Positions 43,877 to 53,697 of a DNA stretch of 64,000 nucleotides are shown piece after piece. Within the stretch, counting starts at the first letter, position 1. Every line of letters begins with the position of its first letter. Made by a program: the position numbers and the translations under genes. This stretch comes from Funiculus sociatus GB2-C1 (GTDB lineage Bacteria; Cyanobacteriota; Cyanobacteriia; Cyanobacteriales; FACHB-T130): positions 1 through 64,000 of the forward strand of contig NZ_JAMPKJ010000001.1 in assembly GCF_039962115.1 (NCBI RefSeq), given 5' to 3'. Below the pieces are notes generated by a model. It made no database searches. It was given only the letters and a program-made list of their open reading frames with translations, and had not been told where the DNA came from.

Positions 43877-44473
43877 CTATTTCTGGAGCGTCTGTTGAAA
43901 GGTCTTGATAGCATCAACGTGATTCACCATATTGATGCAACGTAACAACAAATCCACATCGATCCCTTTGATTTCCTCACTATTGGAAATCTTTTCGTAG
44001 TCCAGAGTGTTGCCCTCTCCCCGCAGGTGATAAATCTCTAGCACTCCGTCTTCCCAGAACCACACTTCAGGAATCTTCAGCCGCTTGTATGTCTCCAGTT
44101 TGTTAATGCCGCCACTGGTAAACACCACTTCGATAGCCAGATCGGGACGCACTCGACCAGGGGCAAGTTTATAGGATTTATCTGCCTCTCGCTTGACGGC
44201 ACCCCCTTCACTTCCTAGGGTCATGGAGCCAGTTGGGGTGAAGTCAAACTCTGCCATAAGCAGGTAAAGCTCCAACAATGCGCCGATCCTCTCCTTTATT
44301 GTTTCGTGGGGTTCTCCTGGCATCCGTCGAATCTCCAGTACTCCATCCAGGAAGGAAAGCCGATATCCTGGACGGTCTAACAATTGCTCAACTGCTTTGA
44401 ACTCTCTCCAGGTCAATCCCTCAAACAGGAGGGGTTCTTCCCTTTGGGGTGTTGCTATCGTTGCCGTGGTCAT
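43877..44473 (-). CDS. Uma2-family nuclease-like protein
   Basis: A 198-residue Uma2 protein. The core is VRPDLAIEVVFTSGGINKLE, followed by YKRLKIPEVWFWEDGVLEIY, containing the acidic and Lys residues of the PD-(D/E)XK fold. It is a separate copy from the one at 18479, with low resemblance outside the core. It lies 9 bases upstream of the aldo-keto reductase and is divergent from the CHAT gene. Confidence 0.88.
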   Translation of the reverse strand: MTTATIATPQREEPLLFEGLTWREFKAVEQLLDRPGYRLSFLDGVLEIRRMPGEPHETIKERIGALLELYLLMAEFDFTPTGSMTLGSEGGAVKREADKSYKLAPGRVRPDLAIEVVFTSGGINKLETYKRLKIPEVWFWEDGVLEIYHLRGEGNTLDYEKISNSEEIKGIDVDLLLRCINMVNHVDAIKTFQQTLQK

Positions 44474-44663: not shown

Positions 44664-47600
44664 ATGCTCACGCTTCGCCTTACCCAACACGCAGATAGTC
44701 AACCAGCCTACTATCGGGTTGAAGTTGCCTTGAAGGGTGATGGTTCGAGACAAACGGCGACAGTACGTTTCCAGTTCAAGCTGACTCAGCAGGAGCAGGA
44801 AAACATCCGTTGGTATTTGGAGGATTATCTCCAGTATCTCTCCGACCCTGCCCCTCAGATTGCAGCAAAGGTAGAGAGACGGATGGCGGAGATCGGAGTT
44901 GAGCTATTTAAAGAAATTTTTCAGGCGAATGATGATGCTCGTGATCTGTGGGCAACCCTGCGTCAGAACTTGAATCATACTCGTGTGGAAATTCTGACGG
45001 ATATTGCCCAGGCAACAGCGATTCCCTGGGAATTGTTGCGCGATCCCAAAACCGATGCTTGTCTGGCGTTGCGATCGCCTGCGTTTGTTCGTAGCTATTC
45101 GCAACCTGCTCAACGTCCACGACTGCCTCAAACTAATGGAGATACCATTCGGATTCTACTGGTGATTTGTCGTCCTCAAGGTAGGGACGATGTGCCATTT
45201 CGTTCTGTTGCTAGTCGGTTGATTAAGGGACTTGGCACCAGAACTGATGGGTTTCAGTTAGATGTTTTGCGTCCACCGACCTTCGAGCAACTCAGCCGTG
45301 TTCTACGGCAGGCGAAGGCGCAAGGCAAACCGTATCATGTCGTTCACTTCGATGGACATGGAGTTTACCAGGATAGTAGTCAACTGACGCTAAACAAAAA
45401 TCCGCTATTTTTTGCGGATCGTCGTCCGGGGATGCACGGCTACCTGGCATTTGAAAATGGGATGGCTGACGAGAATGTTGAGTTTGTCAGTGGTTCAGAT
45501 TTAGGGCAACTGCTGGTAGAGACGGATGTCCCAGTTTTAGTGCTGAATGCCTGTCGCTCAGGTCATGCTGAGGCACAGGATGCTCCAACACAAATCGAGG
45601 GTGCAACTTCAGATCAGATAGGTGATGCCCATTCACCGGTGCGATCATTTGGTTCATTGGCGCAGGAAGTGATGGATGCAGGGGTAGCTGGTGTGGTTGC
45701 CATGCGTTACAACCTTTATGTGATGACAGCCGCTCAGTTTGTGGCGGATCTGTATGCATCGCTGGTGCAGGGGCAGACGTTAGGCGAGGCTGTAACCTCA
45801 GGACGGAAACAACTCAAGGATCAACCTCAGCGAGAAGTTGCCTACAAACCTGTGGCATTGCAAGACTGGCTGGTTCCTGTGGTGTATGAGGCAGCTGCGA
45901 TCACCCTTTTCCCAGCACCTGTTCACTCGCAAAAGCTAACAATCCAATTGCATGAGAATGATGCTCTCCCTGTAACTGGAATGTTGGATGCTCAACTACC
46001 CAAAGCTCCAGATGCTGGATTCTTTGGACGGGATGAGACGTTGTTGGCAATTGACCGAGCATTTGACCATCATGCGATCATATTACTCCATGCGTTTGCT
46101 GGAAGCGGAAAGACCAGCACGGCGGCTGAGTTTGGTCGTTGGTATGCATTAACAGGTGGATTGCTTGAGGCTGGAAAACAGGGATACGTATTGTTCACGT
46201 CGTTTCAGCGATATCTGCCGTTATCAAGGGTGCTGGATAAGCTCGGTCAGGTTTTTGAGCGCGATTTGGAACGATCTGGAATTCAGTGGCTGGCATTGAG
46301 TGATGAACAGCAAAGGGCTGTTGCGTTGCAGGTGCTATCCCAAGTTCCGGTGCTATGGATTTGGGACAATGTGGAACCTGTTGCAGGATTTCCTGATGGC
46401 GAGACTCAACGCTGGAGCGAAGCCGAGCAGCAGGAACTGGCAGACTTTCTTCGAGATGCGCGAGACACTAAAGCTAAATTTTTGCTGACTTCTCGACGCG
46501 ATGAACGAGGATGGTTAGGCGATTTACCTGTGCGAGTGCAAGTGCTACCAATGCCTATGCAAGAACGGGTGCAATTCGCACGAGCGTTAGCAAAGAAACA
46601 TGGGCACCGTCTAACAAATGTAGAGGATTGGCGACCGTTGCTGAGATACACACAAGGAAATCCGTTGACGATTACGGTAGTAGTTGGTCAAGCACTGCGT
46701 AATGGATATAGAAGCAAAGAGCAAATTGAAAAATTTGTTGCTGACTTGCAATCTGGTGAAGCTGAATTGGATGATGACGAGAGCGACGGGCGAGCTAAAT
46801 CTCTAAGTGCATCTTTGAGCTACGGATTTGAACATAACTTTACCCTAAAGGAGAAAGAGAGACTCGCTTTACTATCTTTCTTTCAAGGGTTTGTTACTGC
46901 TTTTGTATTTTCTACGATCGGTTATCCTGATAATGAATGGAGAACTCCAAAAGTTGCAGACTTTGAAGAATTTTATCGTACAGCTATATCAATACTGAAG
47001 CGTGCAACTGAAATTGGGTTTCTCCAAGAAATCGAAGTGGATTTTTATTGGATTCATCCAGCTTTACCTTGGTATTTCAATCGCTTATTTAGACAGCTTT
47101 ACGCACTTAAGGAAACTAGACTATCTGCCACTTATGCATTTGTAAGAGCAATAGGAGACTGGGGGACAGGCTATCACAACCTTTACTTTGATGGGAATCG
47201 AGATGTGGCTGCTTTTCTAATTGCTGAGGAATTAAACTTGCTGTATGCCTTAAAATTAGCGATAGTTAATAACTGGAAAAAAGAGTTGAATGATGTAGCG
47301 AGAGGTCTATTTGCACTCTATGAACATATAGGTGATAGAAGCCAAGAAGAGAGCCTTACAGTAAAATTACTTCCCTATTTTGTTGATTCTAAAACTAGAG
47401 AACCAATATTAAATTTAGAAGAGGAGTGGGATAGGCTCACTCACCATTACTTCAAACTTCTACTTCATCATGGGCGAATGGAAGAAGCAAAACAACTCCA
47501 ACAGAAAAAAGTCGAGTGGAATCGAAAGCAAACTCAGACAATTATAAATCTGTCGCCGGAAGAGTTGGATGAGACCCAAAAAATCGATATTAGGAACCTG

Positions 47601-48308
47601 GCTGTATCAATTGAAGGTATAGGTGTAATTTTTCGTTCGCAAAATAACCCTGAATGTGTTGGCTATTTTGAAGAAGCTGTATCACTTTATCAAAAGATCA
47701 GTAATAGAACTGCTGAAGCTGTGGTTGCACACAATTTGGCTCAAGCATATAAAGATATATCTGAAATTCAGAATTATACAGAAGCCCAAGAGTGGCTCTT
47801 AAAAGCTTTTCAACTATATGGTGAAAATGATTTCCTTGGAAAAGGGAAAAGCGCAATTCTATTTGGTAAGGTGTGTCATGAGCGTTTCGAAAAAGCGCGG
47901 CCTTTTGGAGAGGAGAAAGCCCTGCTTCGAGAACTAAATCTAGGAATAGAGTTTTATCACAAAGCACTTAAGTCTTTGCCTTCCAATGCTGTAGCAGACT
48001 TGGTTGAGGCATCTATAGGTCTTGGAGATACATACAGCGATGCAGTCGAATTTGAGTTAGCTTTATCGTATTATCAACAAGCAATTCGCTACAGTGAAGA
48101 AATCGGAAACTTTTACAAAGCAGCTCAAGCGCGTTATAGCGCTGCTATCACTCTTGCACGGGCAGAAAGATATGATGATGCTCTTTTCTATGCACAAGCT
48201 GCACTAAGGACTGTAGAAACTTGTGGAATAAACGAAAAGATACAACCAACAAAAGATTTGATTTCAAACCTTGAGCAGAAGTTACTTGAAAGATCAGGAT
48301 TAAGCTAA
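44664..48308 (+). CDS. CHAT protease / NTPase / helical-repeat protein
   Basis: A 1214-residue multidomain protein. The CHAT caspase-like protease covers about 1-400 with the His in HFDGHG (His232) and Cys in LVLNACRSG (Cys297). A STAND-type NTPase follows, Walker A HAFAGSGKTS (476-485) and Walker B VLWIWDNVEP near 565. The C-terminal third is helical with TPR-like repeats (AEAVVAHNLAQAYKDISEIQ; SYYQQAIRYSEEIGNFYKAA). The combination is typical of sensor-NTPase-protease immune proteins. Its stop overlaps the next start by one base (TAATG). The last 1.5 kb is more AT-rich than the CHAT half, suggesting a mosaic. Confidence 0.9.
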   Translation: MLTLRLTQHADSQPAYYRVEVALKGDGSRQTATVRFQFKLTQQEQENIRWYLEDYLQYLSDPAPQIAAKVERRMAEIGVELFKEIFQANDDARDLWATLRQNLNHTRVEILTDIAQATAIPWELLRDPKTDACLALRSPAFVRSYSQPAQRPRLPQTNGDTIRILLVICRPQGRDDVPFRSVASRLIKGLGTRTDGFQLDVLRPPTFEQLSRVLRQAKAQGKPYHVVHFDGHGVYQDSSQLTLNKNPLFFADRRPGMHGYLAFENGMADENVEFVSGSDLGQLLVETDVPVLVLNACRSGHAEAQDAPTQIEGATSDQIGDAHSPVRSFGSLAQEVMDAGVAGVVAMRYNLYVMTAAQFVADLYASLVQGQTLGEAVTSGRKQLKDQPQREVAYKPVALQDWLVPVVYEAAAITLFPAPVHSQKLTIQLHENDALPVTGMLDAQLPKAPDAGFFGRDETLLAIDRAFDHHAIILLHAFAGSGKTSTAAEFGRWYALTGGLLEAGKQGYVLFTSFQRYLPLSRVLDKLGQVFERDLERSGIQWLALSDEQQRAVALQVLSQVPVLWIWDNVEPVAGFPDGETQRWSEAEQQELADFLRDARDTKAKFLLTSRRDERGWLGDLPVRVQVLPMPMQERVQFARALAKKHGHRLTNVEDWRPLLRYTQGNPLTITVVVGQALRNGYRSKEQIEKFVADLQSGEAELDDDESDGRAKSLSASLSYGFEHNFTLKEKERLALLSFFQGFVTAFVFSTIGYPDNEWRTPKVADFEEFYRTAISILKRATEIGFLQEIEVDFYWIHPALPWYFNRLFRQLYALKETRLSATYAFVRAIGDWGTGYHNLYFDGNRDVAAFLIAEELNLLYALKLAIVNNWKKELNDVARGLFALYEHIGDRSQEESLTVKLLPYFVDSKTREPILNLEEEWDRLTHHYFKLLLHHGRMEEAKQLQQKKVEWNRKQTQTIINLSPEELDETQKIDIRNLAVSIEGIGVIFRSQNNPECVGYFEEAVSLYQKISNRTAEAVVAHNLAQAYKDISEIQNYTEAQEWLLKAFQLYGENDFLGKGKSAILFGKVCHERFEKARPFGEEKALLRELNLGIEFYHKALKSLPSNAVADLVEASIGLGDTYSDAVEFELALSYYQQAIRYSEEIGNFYKAAQARYSAAITLARAERYDDALFYAQAALRTVETCGINEKIQPTKDLISNLEQKLLERSGLS

Positions 48309-48604
48309 TGACATCATCTCTATGGTTCGACAATTTGCCTACGCTTGGGCAGTTAGCTCCTGGACAGGCTGCAACTAAGCTACGTGAGCTTGGTGAAATT
48401 GCTGATGCTGAGGTTCTAGAATCTGCTGAGAAAGATGTTCCGCAAACTTATGCTGCCTGGTCTCTTCTAGGCGATAAACCCTGGTAGCACACGCCTCACA
48501 CGCTTGGCTATCTTGCCCCTGCTCCTCCCAACAGTCACGACTTATCGATTCAATCTGCCAGCAATATCGCTCCTGACCTCACCGTGAAAAGCGATCACAA
48601 TTGA
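48308..48604 (+). pseudogene. CHAT-partner gene, broken copy
   Basis: ATG 48308 overlaps the CHAT stop. The frame reads LWFDNLPTLGQL ... AATKLRELG for 59 codons, then meets TAG at 48485. Past the stop the same frame goes on with HTPHTLGYLAPAPPNSHDLS, matching residues about 72-105 of the intact copy 330 bases downstream, then ends at 48602. It is a truncated duplicate. If TAG is read as a true stop, a 59-residue peptide could still be made from a strong coupled start. Confidence 0.75.
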
Positions 48605-48641
48605 GTATGATCAATCTCTTAAACTCTCAAATCTTTACTGC

Positions 48642-49568
48642 ATGATGGACACTGCTCTTTGGTTTGATGACCAACCTGTTTTAGGTCATCTTCCTCATTT
48701 ACAGGCTGCTGCAAAACTCAGGGAAATTGGAGATGAAGTTACTGCTGAAGTTTTAGAGGAAGATGTAGATCCTAACATCGCTAACTTTAGTGCAAGAAGT
48801 TCTTGGCCTTTCCACGATAAACCCTGGCAGCACACGGCTCACACACTTGGCTATCTTGCACCTGCTCCTCCCAATAGCCACGACTTACCGATTCAGTCTG
48901 CCAGCAATATCGCTCCTAACCTCACCCTGAAAAGTGATCGCATCAAAATTACCCTCAACGCTTTACGGGTTGCCGATTACCCTGGTAGTGGCACCCATCA
49001 AATTTTGTTTGACTTCTACGCTCAGAACCAACTTCCTGACACTACGGAACATCTACACTTCAACAGCACCTATCGAGTCCGAGAAGGCGAACGTGCTGCC
49101 CTGCTTAACTACCCCATCTTCCTGGGATTGAATGTTGGCAACAATGGGTTGATCTTTAAGTGCTTCACCGTCAACGTCAAAAACGAAGAAGATGAAGCCG
49201 CTATTCAGTTTCTAGAGTCCGATGTATTCAAAACTGGGTTGCAATTGGCAACCACTGTACAACCTGCGATCAAGCCTCTGTCGGAAATGGCGATTGGGTT
49301 CACTAAGGCAATTGCCAATCGTCGCAAGAACGTTCCCGTGCAAGATATCCATATTGGTCTGGATTTCAGCAACAATCCGATGGGTGCTCGTTTAGCAGAG
49401 GGAGTTTACATCGCTGTGCAAATTCCCGAAACACTTACCCGTGTCTGGGATTGGAGCGATTGGATTTACGACACCAGCACAGGACAAATCGTTAAAGACT
49501 ACAGCCGCGACCAGTTGATTCCCTACAATTACATCGCCTTTGGCATCAGTCGCTATGAGGCAAGTTAA
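48642..49568 (+). CDS. CHAT-linked partner protein, unknown family
   Basis: A 308-residue soluble protein. An N-terminal module with LWFDDQPVLGHL, AAAKLREIG and PFHDKPWQHTAHTLGYL (about 1-75) leads to a strand-rich body starting near residue 95 (TLKSDRIKITLNALRVADYP), ending with VYIAVQIPETLTRVWDWSDW and YIAFGISRYEAS. No domain is recognised. A diverged, stop-containing copy of its first third sits between it and the CHAT gene. Position suggests it is the CHAT substrate, inhibitor or effector; that is inference. Confidence 0.75.
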   Translation: MMDTALWFDDQPVLGHLPHLQAAAKLREIGDEVTAEVLEEDVDPNIANFSARSSWPFHDKPWQHTAHTLGYLAPAPPNSHDLPIQSASNIAPNLTLKSDRIKITLNALRVADYPGSGTHQILFDFYAQNQLPDTTEHLHFNSTYRVREGERAALLNYPIFLGLNVGNNGLIFKCFTVNVKNEEDEAAIQFLESDVFKTGLQLATTVQPAIKPLSEMAIGFTKAIANRRKNVPVQDIHIGLDFSNNPMGARLAEGVYIAVQIPETLTRVWDWSDWIYDTSTGQIVKDYSRDQLIPYNYIAFGISRYEAS

Positions 49569-50012
49569 ATGAACAGAACTGCTAGTATGCTTCGTAAAAA
49601 CTAAAGCTAGCGCTTACGCCCCTTCACCTTTTAGAACACGAGGGGAGAATACCTCACTGTTGTTCAGTGAACCATAACACTTCCATGCCCAAGGTTTTGC
49701 TCAGAGGAGTGATCGCATAGCGTCCGCTTTGTGGAGTGGGCGACAATAGAAACCTCAACTCAAGAAAGCCGCTACTTTCTCTGGAACCCCGAATGTGCAA
49801 AGAGTCGGGAGAAAATAAGGTCATTTTGTTTAACCTTGGCGGTCATGGACACTTTGATATGCAGGCGTACATGAACTATCAGACCGGAAAACTGGTAGAT
49901 ACTGAGTACAGTGCAGAGGAAGTCGCGATCGCTCTGGCAGGATTACCTGTTGTCGGTTAGGGTTCTGGAGAGCTGATTTCTTGCCGTCCTCAGTTGTGGT
50001 TGTGTTTGTGTT
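49569..50012. other. Intergenic region with gene remnant
   Basis: Apart from the trpB-like remnant (49736-49960), this stretch holds a HIP1-linked short palindrome near 49711-49736 (GATCGCATAGCGTCCGC then TTTGTGGAG) and no intact gene. Confidence 0.5.
49736..49960 (+). pseudogene. Tryptophan synthase beta-like (TrpB2) C-terminal remnant
   Basis: From about 49793 the frame reads CKESGENKVILFNLGGHGHF then DMQAYMNYQTGKL and EVAIALAGLP. This is the C-terminal block of TrpB-like PLP enzymes (VILFNLCGHGHFDMxAY). Nothing upstream matches, so only about 55 of some 450 residues remain. Confidence 0.65.
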
Positions 50013-52028: not shown

Positions 52029-52589
52029 TCATTGCTCCAAAAGAAGTGGTAATAGCCGCTGTAATTCTCCACAAGCTGCCTGAAGTGATTCTGGTGCATC
52101 TTCTGGTAAGTTTTGAGAACGGCATTGATCTGCCAGTTTCTCAACATAGGGCTTGCAAGAAGCTTCATTTTTCAGAAATTTTGAATAGGTATCTTCCTCG
52201 TTTACAGGTTCTTCCTGCAAGTAGTGTATCCAGGTTTCAATATTGCGTTTAGGTACAAATACTGCGATCGCTTCATCTGGTTGACGATTTTCCTGGGAAT
52301 CTTCGCTGAGGGCGTGAGCTAACTGATTGAGTCGTTCCTGCGATGTGTCAGTATCTGCATCAATCAACACGACTAATCCAATCGATACACGGTTTTTATT
52401 TTGGCGATATGCTTTTACTTCCGCCGGATACTGAGTGCGTACATACTGTTCCCCAGATTGGCTACCTGGAGGACAGATTTCAGCTCGGAATCGACCTGCA
52501 AAACCTCGTTTTTTTAAGAAATAACGAGCAAAAACCTCCTGCTGTCTATCTTCACAGAGGATGACAATCTGGACTCTATGCTGGCTCAT
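52029..52589 (-). CDS. TOPRIM-like / DUF4276-type protein, partner of the ATPase
   Basis: A 186-residue protein with TOPRIM-like acidic positions: Glu13 in VILCEDRQQE and DADTD (Asp77, Asp79) in LVVLIDADTDTS. The C-terminal half is helical with NIETWIHYL. This is the architecture of small nucleases paired with OLD/RecF-like ATPases (RloB, AriB and DUF4276 proteins). Its first 14 bases overlap the upstream ATPase gene, so both come from one transcript. Which family it belongs to needs a profile search. Confidence 0.7.
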   Translation of the reverse strand: MSQHRVQIVILCEDRQQEVFARYFLKKRGFAGRFRAEICPPGSQSGEQYVRTQYPAEVKAYRQNKNRVSIGLVVLIDADTDTSQERLNQLAHALSEDSQENRQPDEAIAVFVPKRNIETWIHYLQEEPVNEEDTYSKFLKNEASCKPYVEKLADQCRSQNLPEDAPESLQAACGELQRLLPLLLEQ

Positions 52590-53697
52590 TCAACCAGCCC
52601 CGTGCAATGAGTTCTGAAACGGGTAGTCCAGAATTTTCAGCTACTTCACTACTAATTCGTTTTACTCGGACAGGGGCATTGCTTTGACGCTCAAACCAAT
52701 AGCCGATTGGTGAAGCCAAAAGGTAATTAATTAATTCAGGATGGTGAGAAATTAGTAACGTTTGAAGTTTTCTTTCGCTACAAAAATCGTAAAGCTCAAT
52801 AAGCCAGGGTTGAATTTCTGGCAATGCTAAGAAGTTTTCAGGTTCATCAATGCACAAGGTATAGTCTTCGGATTTGGTACCATGAATAAGTGTGTACAAA
52901 GCAACTAACGTTTTTTGTCCATCGGACAATTCTCCCAGGCGATATTCAATCGGTTTTGTGGTCGCTGCTCCTCCTGAAAAACGTAGTTTTAGCACCAAGT
53001 TTTGTTCGCTTACTCGCTCAAATCTAAAGTTTGTGAAGCCATCCAGTACATTTCTTAAAATATTTCCAATTTCAGCGACCTTGCCTTGATCTTCAGAAAG
53101 GTAGCGATACCAAGAAACAAAATTTTCTGCCTTACTGACCAAACGCATTTCTTCCTGGTTACTCTCATCAACCATCAAACTGGGAATGATTCGCACGATG
53201 ATAAATCGTGCCATCCGTTCTCTAAACCAAGTTAACTTTGTGTTATCCCTTATCGGCATTAAAGATGGCAGCATAGACTGAGACCAATCAAACGAGTATT
53301 TCGATCCCTCGGAATGATCGTCTCGATAGAGTTCAACGCTACCTAACTCAAATTTCAGTAAAAGCCGATTATCAAACCACAGACGCTCGTACTCAACGCG
53401 AATTTTATCCCGATATGGACCAATACCCAACTCATATTTGTAGCTGCCGCCATTACCTAAAATCTCTAGCTCAAAACGTTGAATTTGGGAGGTTTGCCAG
53501 CGGGTGCAGTCCACAGATTTGAAAATTCCCTCGACCTTACTATCACCACTGACAAATGCCTGAATTTTCTGCAATACTTCAAAAACAGTGGATTTACCTG
53601 CTCCGTTAGAACCTAGAAATAAATTAATGGCGTCAACATTAAGTTCAAAATTAACTAGGCAGCGAAAATTATCAATATATATACGTTTCAGCATCAA
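52576..53697 (-). CDS. OLD/RecF-like AAA ATPase
   Basis: A 373-residue ABC-type ATPase. Walker A GSNGAGKST is at 29-37, signature LSDGQKTLVALYTL near 250, Walker B and following YTLCIDEPENFLALPE near 273, and a switch His in LLISHHPELINYLL. This is the AAA_21 layout of overcoming-lysogenization-defect type proteins. It overlaps the TOPRIM-like gene by 14 bases. Pairs of this kind act as abortive-infection or toxin systems in other bacteria; the role here is inferred. Confidence 0.85.
   Translation of the reverse strand: MMLKRIYIDNFRCLVNFELNVDAINLFLGSNGAGKSTVFEVLQKIQAFVSGDSKVEGIFKSVDCTRWQTSQIQRFELEILGNGGSYKYELGIGPYRDKIRVEYERLWFDNRLLLKFELGSVELYRDDHSEGSKYSFDWSQSMLPSLMPIRDNTKLTWFRERMARFIIVRIIPSLMVDESNQEEMRLVSKAENFVSWYRYLSEDQGKVAEIGNILRNVLDGFTNFRFERVSEQNLVLKLRFSGGAATTKPIEYRLGELSDGQKTLVALYTLIHGTKSEDYTLCIDEPENFLALPEIQPWLIELYDFCSERKLQTLLISHHPELINYLLASPIGYWFERQSNAPVRVKRISSEVAENSGLPVSELIARGWLNEPA

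Follow-up and report, generated by a model that had tools for sequence, protein, structure and literature searches.

The window analysed here is a stretch of 64,000 nucleotides of the cyanobacterium Funiculus sociatus GB2-C1 (contig NZ_JAMPKJ010000001.1, positions 1 to 64,000), which contains a gene for a putative CHAT protease followed on the same strand by a truncated and an intact copy of a second gene, whose product we call the partner. By surveying the partner family across bacterial genomes, we found it to be linked to three kinds of protease, being CHAT proteases, C14 caspases and the S8 proteases of IetAS.

Results

The CHAT protease gene and the intact partner gene

The CHAT gene (44664..48308, plus strand) encodes a protein of 1214 amino acids which, as the sequence-only reading of this DNA had described, combines a CHAT domain with an NTPase region. 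In Pfam, the open reading frame (ORF) matches CHAT (PF12770) with 66.9 bits (cut-off 24, E-value 2.6e-18) and TPR_12 with 47.1 bits (cut-off 30.1). The CHAT domain covers residues 95-396 (44946..45851), with H232 and C297 as catalytic residues in the alignment, and is followed by a STAND-like NTPase region (residues 453-599, 46020..46460), where AAA_16 scores 25.7 bits (1.8e-5), below its cut-off of 32.6, and where a P-loop AGSGKT was spotted by eye. The His232 and Cys297 whose conservation had been proposed, taken here as residues of the CHAT protein, are invariant in 9/9 aligned CHAT proteins, the window's among them, and are also kept in the broken CHAT gene of a Leptolyngbyaceae locus (L007). 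By profile and catalytic dyad, the CHAT protein of the window is thus a putative protease.

The second copy of the partner gene is intact, as had been stated, and lies at 48642..49568 (plus strand) as an ORF of 308 amino acids. No model in Pfam, NCBIfam, PADLOC or PHROGs matches its product above chance, and in Pfam there is no match at all at E 1. A literature search by titles and abstract openings, with bioRxiv preprints and most subscription papers outside its scope, found no paper on the family. The protein starts with a conserved N-terminal motif (residues 5-36, 48654..48749), continues with a variable linker (residues 37-61, 48750..48824), in which the predicted local distance difference test score (pLDDT) falls below 50 at residues 42-59, and ends with a predicted beta-sandwich core. 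Conservation is 2.6-3.2 bits in the core and 1.6 bits in the linker, the lowest value after residues 1-4, and the linker and the first residues are the least conserved parts across the whole family.

A search of the own genome with the N-terminal motif gave good matches to the two copies alone; a short ORF with some similarity (E 2.3) appeared unrelated by eye. In this genome and 23 others, all matches below 1e-4 were partner genes (the partner of genome G448, L016, was missed), and the one other match in the 23 genomes was a 118-amino-acid ORF in G024 at 6.5e-4. The idea that this motif is a widespread EAD-like adaptor was rejected, as strong matches are confined to partner genes in these genomes.

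Distribution of the partner family

The partner family is rare and patchy. It occurs in 5/100 relatives and in 6/386 genomes from the phylum (both counts include the own genome), in 3/301 genomes around G440 and 3/299 around G449 (centres counted), and in 5/72,556 plasmids. A scan of genome contigs gave 16 loci, the phyla, taken from the rows of the partner tree, being Cyanobacteriota, Chloroflexota, Acidobacteriota, Thermodesulfobacteriota, Bacteroidota and Pseudomonadota. The partner found no match in 50,697 phage records, and in viral contigs 3 and 29 candidate stretches were obtained, none of which was confirmed. The only viral match below 0.001 to the model of one partner (L009) was an uncharacterised protein of Hokovirus HKV1 (A0A1V0SF49, E 1.7e-6, 262 columns).

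Linkage to three kinds of protease

Neighbouring genes were examined at 33 partner loci. CHAT neighbours are present at 12 of them, C14 caspases at 10 and the IetAS S8 protease at 4, while 6 have no protease neighbour and one (L014), which begins too close to a contig end, is undecidable. A CHAT, C14 or S8 ORF was seen directly at 24/33 loci, and two CHAT loci were added on separate evidence: at L017 a downstream ORF matches Pfam CHAT with 27.6 bits (cut-off 24), and L013 starts with an exact 80-nucleotide overlap with the end of a CHAT-bearing contig of the same genome, so that its CHAT gene probably lies upstream, with small genes resembling toxin-antitoxin genes (names by eye) between it and the partner gene. 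The other CHAT loci are the window, L007 (broken), L009, L010, L015 (with WD40), L016, L020, L021, L022 and L023. C14 caspases are found at L024, L025, L026, L029, L038-L042 and L061, and S8 proteases at L027, L028, L059 and L060; their catalytic residues are kept in 10/10 C14 (H/C) and 4/4 S8 proteins (D/H/S, by eye). Some loci are not independent (L018 and L019 are near-copies, L039 and L040 share one genome, as do L012 and L061), and the partner gene itself is damaged in L027, L029 and L058.

The linkage was also tested against the other ORFs of the same loci. Of the same-strand ORFs within 300 nucleotides, 22/36 are CHAT, C14 or S8 proteases, compared to 5/250 of the other ORFs (Fisher 5.5e-19), two of these five background ORFs being the CHAT genes of the window and L007. 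The neighbour profiles were derived from these same neighbours and may therefore overlook distant proteases elsewhere; a sample was confirmed by Pfam. The sequence-only reading had staked itself on the family recurring beside CHAT genes and on conservation of the dyad, and it held on both points: partner genes stand beside CHAT genes in five phyla (Cyanobacteriota, Acidobacteriota, Bacteroidota, Pseudomonadota and Chloroflexota), with 6/33 loci lacking a protease. The association is moreover wider than first proposed, since it extends to C14 caspases and IetAS S8 proteases.

At the genome level, a close CHAT orthologue (E 1e-120) occurs in 2/100 relatives, which are exactly the two with a partner gene beside CHAT. 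Among the genomes of the phylum sample, such an orthologue is confined to the own genome; five others have a CHAT homologue at 30-34% identity without a CHAT-linked partner.

Family tree, IetAS loci and caspase clusters

The partner tree contains 28 rows, being 9 C14, 2 S8 and 17 others. The C14 rows form one branch (100/100), as do the S8 rows (100/99), and the remaining 17 comprise 11 CHAT rows together with L008, L011, L012 and L018, and with L013 and L014, which are labelled unknown there.

At all S8 loci (4/4), PADLOC recognises IetA (E 1.2e-120 to 2e-131) and IetS (E 1.7e-244 to 4.2e-260), and the partner is the gene behind them. IetAS is a two-gene system that PADLOC lists among known or candidate defence systems and that, as Gao et al. 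reportedly found in 2020, protects from phage. An IetS match at 1e-30 is present in 20 of the 299 genomes around G449 (14 of 27 places inspected); 10 of these are full-length, of which 2 are accompanied by a partner gene, so the partner is an extra gene in IetAS, lacking in 8/10 genomes with full-length IetS. At L101, L102, L104 and L105, a full-length IetS has other genes close behind it, one of them HsdR-like. There may be a variable third slot behind IetS, as an effector slot would look, or these may be ordinary neighbours.

At five C14 loci the next large gene was scanned as well, and it encodes an EAD10 protein at three (one with VMAP-C), a NACHT-HEAT protein at one and a helicase-like protein at one. 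EAD and VMAP are typical of the conflict systems described by Kaur et al. (2020, 2021; PMC7159879, PMC8195603).

The first copy of the partner gene

The first copy (48308..48604, plus strand) is a 5' remnant of the partner gene and thus a pseudogene. Its start codon (ATG, 48308) overlaps the TAA stop codon of the CHAT gene by one base, which bears out the overlap that had been noted, and its frame runs for 59 codons to an in-frame TAG (48485-48487) and for 38 more to a TGA (48602-48604), 98 codons with the TAG included. The remnant is homologous only to the first third of the 308-amino-acid partner, so that about 210 family codons, the 3' two thirds, are missing. The copy had been described as cut by the TAG, and the TAG is indeed there, but this is not a gene merely cut: it is a decaying relic, and the TAG is not the cause of its loss of function because some 210 codons are already lacking.

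A more decayed remnant stands at the same place in L007, behind the frame-broken CHAT gene. Aligned to the first copy, it has frame errors and an internal deletion, and the right-hand junction is common to both remnants, which come from different genera (18 nucleotides at 94% and another 12 that are identical). The simplest reading is that the first copy was truncated before the lineages of the window and L007 parted and that the TAG came later. In L010 the first copy is gone and a hicB-like piece stands in its place, and in L007 a hicBA-like pair lies between the remnant and the intact partner gene (names by eye). HicB/HicA-like genes or remnants (names by eye) between CHAT and partner genes are thus present at L007:6478-6932 and L010:6833-7000, and other toxin-antitoxin-like genes (names by eye) in the genome of L013. 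A functional coupled mini-gene was considered for the first copy and rejected on account of the frame errors and internal deletion in L007 and the loss in L010. The coupling to CHAT that had been proposed does not hold for the window, since the overlapping copy is the relic and the working gene neither overlaps nor abuts CHAT; in the single-copy relatives L016, L022, L023, L015 and L020 the CHAT and partner genes overlap or abut.

The two copies were reported to have diverged over the N-terminal part and to be alike in a shared part, and our comparison agrees, with 81/164 identical nucleotides in the former and 116/128 in the latter. Among identical residues, the codon is identical as well at 8/24 positions of the N-terminal part compared to 29/35 of the shared part (Fisher p 2.5e-4). 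As synonymous sites differ too, protein-level selection alone is insufficient, and different histories of the two blocks are supported. The earlier explanation by gene conversion or N-terminal selection is therefore retained only in that the blocks have separate histories: selection is not enough on its own, and recent conversion between the copies is unsupported, since in the shared block their identity (116/128) is not significantly above that between the second copy and L010 (112/128, p 0.55). The shared stretch of about 41 codons (48815-48942) also keeps more fourfold sites between intact genes of different genera (17/20, 15/18 and 13/18) than the rest of these genes (47/82, 38/78 and 39/78).

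Apparent exchange of the C-terminal sensor module

The CHAT protein ends with an apparently exchangeable, putative sensor module with TPRs, from about residue 735 (46866..48305). The CHAT proteins of the window and L010 share 85% identity over residues 20-735 and 33% over residues 760-1205, with a sharp step around residue 735. The CHAT protein of L007 is in its NTPase part 83% identical to the window and 84% to L010, while in the C-terminal part L021 is the nearest (62%) and identity to the window and L010 drops to 36-37%. At fourfold sites, likewise, 148/302 are identical before residue 750 and 17/61 beyond it (p 0.003), a drop to which misalignment at 33% protein identity may contribute. 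The module has thus apparently been exchanged between CHAT proteins of close relatives. L007 and L021 share similar sensors, and the conjecture that the N-terminus of the first partner copy was imported along with such a sensor is attractive but stays conjectural, the L007 remnant being no closer to L021 than to other family members.

Predicted fold of the partner

Two AlphaFold2 models of the partner, made from the same 17 sequences (pLDDT 75.8 and 76.0), begin with short helices, continue through a linker of low confidence and end in a beta sandwich (residues 62-308, 48825..49565) into which three helices are inserted (residues 182-227, 49185..49322; DSSP of both models). Structure comparison gave best Z values of 8.6 (root-mean-square deviation 3.2, 122 aligned) and 8.4 (3.6, 121 aligned), both to C2-containing chains, and Foldseek best E-values of 5.3e-3 and 6.5e-3. 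Among the matches listed are the C2-containing chains of PI3K, PLC and Vps34, of which we take the matched parts to be the C2 domains, C2 domains of Munc13, cPLA2 and synaptotagmin-like proteins, and two syNOS entries. We predict with moderate confidence a C2-like beta sandwich with a three-helix insert, the claim being kept moderate because the Z values are near the level reached by unrelated models. At E 1, the family profile matched only multicystatin among PDB chains (0.012, 55 positions); a cystatin-like inhibitor was rejected, as this was a single chain and no stretch passed on its own.

Discussion

Likeness to known protease systems

In gene organisation, the locus resembles the gasdermin and Craspase systems. 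Like the gasdermins of bacteria (bGSDM) and fungi with their proteases (HET-Q1/HET-Q2), the partner is a small protein without recognised enzyme domain encoded beside a CHAT or S8 protease. Dedicated proteases activate the bacterial gasdermins, fungal gasdermins cluster with regulating S8 (~60%) or CHAT (~17%) proteases, and fungal HET-Q2-like proteins carry TPR, ANK or WD40 (PMC10989679). TPR or WD40 likewise occur in some of the CHAT neighbours at our loci. The predicted fold sets the partner apart, being C2-like with a variable linker near the N-terminus, whereas gasdermins have a C-terminal inhibitory part. By sequence the partner is not a gasdermin: no Pfam family matched at E 1 and, of the PDB chains, only multicystatin (0.012). 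The searched Pfam and PDB libraries presumably contain gasdermins. In neither fold comparison are gasdermins among the matches listed (best 50 each), which does not speak against a gasdermin fold.

In Craspase, the TPR-CHAT protease Csx29 is accompanied by Csx30, so that a CHAT protease with TPRs and a dedicated neighbour protein are common to both, and Craspase CHAT proteases cut this neighbour at non-conserved sites (PMC11106740). Unlike in Craspase, the CHAT protein of the window has an NTPase region. Inspection by eye of the ORFs of 40-54 kb, where no model search was made, revealed no Cas7-11 or other CRISPR effector. PDB matches contained no Craspase chain for the family profile (E 1) or the CHAT profile (E 0.01), the latter matching 39 PDB sequences at 0.01, in the TPR part.

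The S8 clade, with members behind IetA-IetS at 4/4 S8 loci, ties the family to IetAS, although the window gene neighbours a CHAT-NTPase-TPR gene with no adjacent IetA or IetS. The C14 clade recalls the EAD/VMAP/MoxR-vWA caspase systems of Kaur et al. (2020, 2021), with EAD10 at 3/5 and NACHT-HEAT at 1/5 scanned loci; unlike in these systems, the fifth has a helicase-like gene, and no component like the partner family was found in the accessible parts of these two papers (PMC7159879, PMC8195603). Trypco1 and Trypco2 are comparable as families named for the protease class that they follow in conflict systems (PMC7159879), but the window partner has no Pfam match at E 1 and its family follows CHAT, C14 and S8 alike.

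A candidate substrate or effector of an immune-type protease

That the intact gene encodes a dedicated partner of an immune-type protease, being a cleavage-gated substrate or effector, is the reading that fits best, because a family without recognised enzyme domain occurs with CHAT, caspase and S8 proteases; we hold it to have an even chance of being right. The C-terminal TPR sensor of the CHAT protein would detect an invader, upon which the NTPase would switch the CHAT protease on. Cleavage of the partner would follow, with the variable linker that joins the N-terminal motif to the C2-like core as the likeliest site and hence a candidate cleavage region, and the freed core might act at the membrane or another target and stop the infected cell. 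In the two other clades the partner would serve C14 caspases, several of them from clusters with EAD10, VMAP or NACHT, and the IetAS S8 protease in the same way. The first copy, being a relic, would have no part in this mechanism. A bolder proposal, which we put forward tentatively and which is rather doubtful as a whole, is that the family forms a second, gasdermin-independent kind of proteolysis-gated death effector. Its members would be C2-like membrane proteins, which the N-terminal motif keeps inactive until the protease recruited by the host system, be it CHAT, caspase or subtilisin, releases them, and an exchangeable sensor cassette would feed the CHAT version.

Several observations weigh against a cleaved partner. 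No conserved cleavage motif was seen by eye in the linker, although the sites cut by Craspase CHAT proteases are not conserved either (PMC11106740). The window partner has no clear transmembrane segment, its highest 19-residue hydropathy being 1.23; over 28 family members, compared by hydropathy only with the single conserved transmembrane helix that marks the EACC1 constant component encoded 5' of a caspase gene, the maxima are 0.87-1.62, at differing places. The similarity of the models to C2 domains is near the level reached by unrelated models. The CHAT-linked partners are not one clade and require 5 changes on the tree; six loci (L008, L011, L012, L018, L019 and L058) have no protease neighbour; and the CHAT match of L017 is barely above cut-off and without His/Cys motif in a simple motif scan. 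In the genomes of orphan loci G440, G443, G444 and G450 no close CHAT homologue was found (G444 has a 34% paralogue, the others none at 1e-20), so the pairing of CHAT and partner is not obligatory, although these assemblies may be incomplete. A CHAT homologue at 1e-20 was likewise not found in G440, G443, G446 and G450, whose partners lie in the same part of the tree, and G449 also lacks a match at this threshold, its own neighbouring CHAT being too distant for that search.

The strongest alternative, which we nevertheless consider unlikely, is that the partner is a regulator, adaptor or inhibitor which remains uncut, for example by tethering the protease to the membrane via the C2-like core or by keeping the protease off. 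C2 domains commonly target membranes or partners, the conserved N-terminal motif would suit docking, and the partner gene often overlaps or abuts the protease gene; Trypco1/2 moreover offer a precedent as named protease neighbours in conflict systems (PMC7159879). One docking or inhibitory surface would however have to fit CHAT, C14 and S8 proteases alike. CHAT and C14 share a clan, with S8 outside it. The partner moreover accompanies 2/10 full-length IetS in the 299-genome sample, and 6/33 loci are without protease neighbour. That the partner senses infection or binds a ligand and thereby alerts the protease is improbable: the N-terminal part and linker are variable, some members stand alone and the VMAP/EAD10 proteins of some C14 clusters could transmit signals, but conservation is highest in the core (2.6-3.2 bits compared to 1.6 in the linker), unlike in a sensor under diversifying pressure, and strong variation lies in the C-terminal module of CHAT instead. 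Passive clustering in defence islands, without functional tie to proteases, would suit the candidate defence genes nearby in the window (Uma2 PDC-S17 and a HEC-01-like pair) and is highly improbable in view of the same-strand overlap or near-abutment, the single protease type in each of two clades and the protease rate of 22/36 against 5/250.

To our knowledge, few substrates have been described for the plentiful bacterial CHAT and caspase genes. A rare family that occurs with three kinds of protease, one of which comes from a PADLOC-listed anti-phage system, narrows the search to a few protease-partner pairs that can be tested and adds a component to some IetAS loci. Should the partner prove to be cut and to kill, the gasdermins would be joined by a second protease-gated death effector.

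Other genes around the locus

Downstream of the partner gene, a 74-amino-acid ORF at 49736-49960, without Pfam support, resembles the end of a TrpB-like pyridoxal phosphate enzyme and is probably a gene fragment. Upstream of CHAT, a Uma2-family gene on the minus strand (43877-44473) has a strong PADLOC match to PDC-S17 (5e-74). Further downstream, also on the minus strand, an AAA ATPase gene and a small DUF3226-like gene (weak) at 52029-53697 match HEC-01A/B and PDC-M25A in PADLOC.

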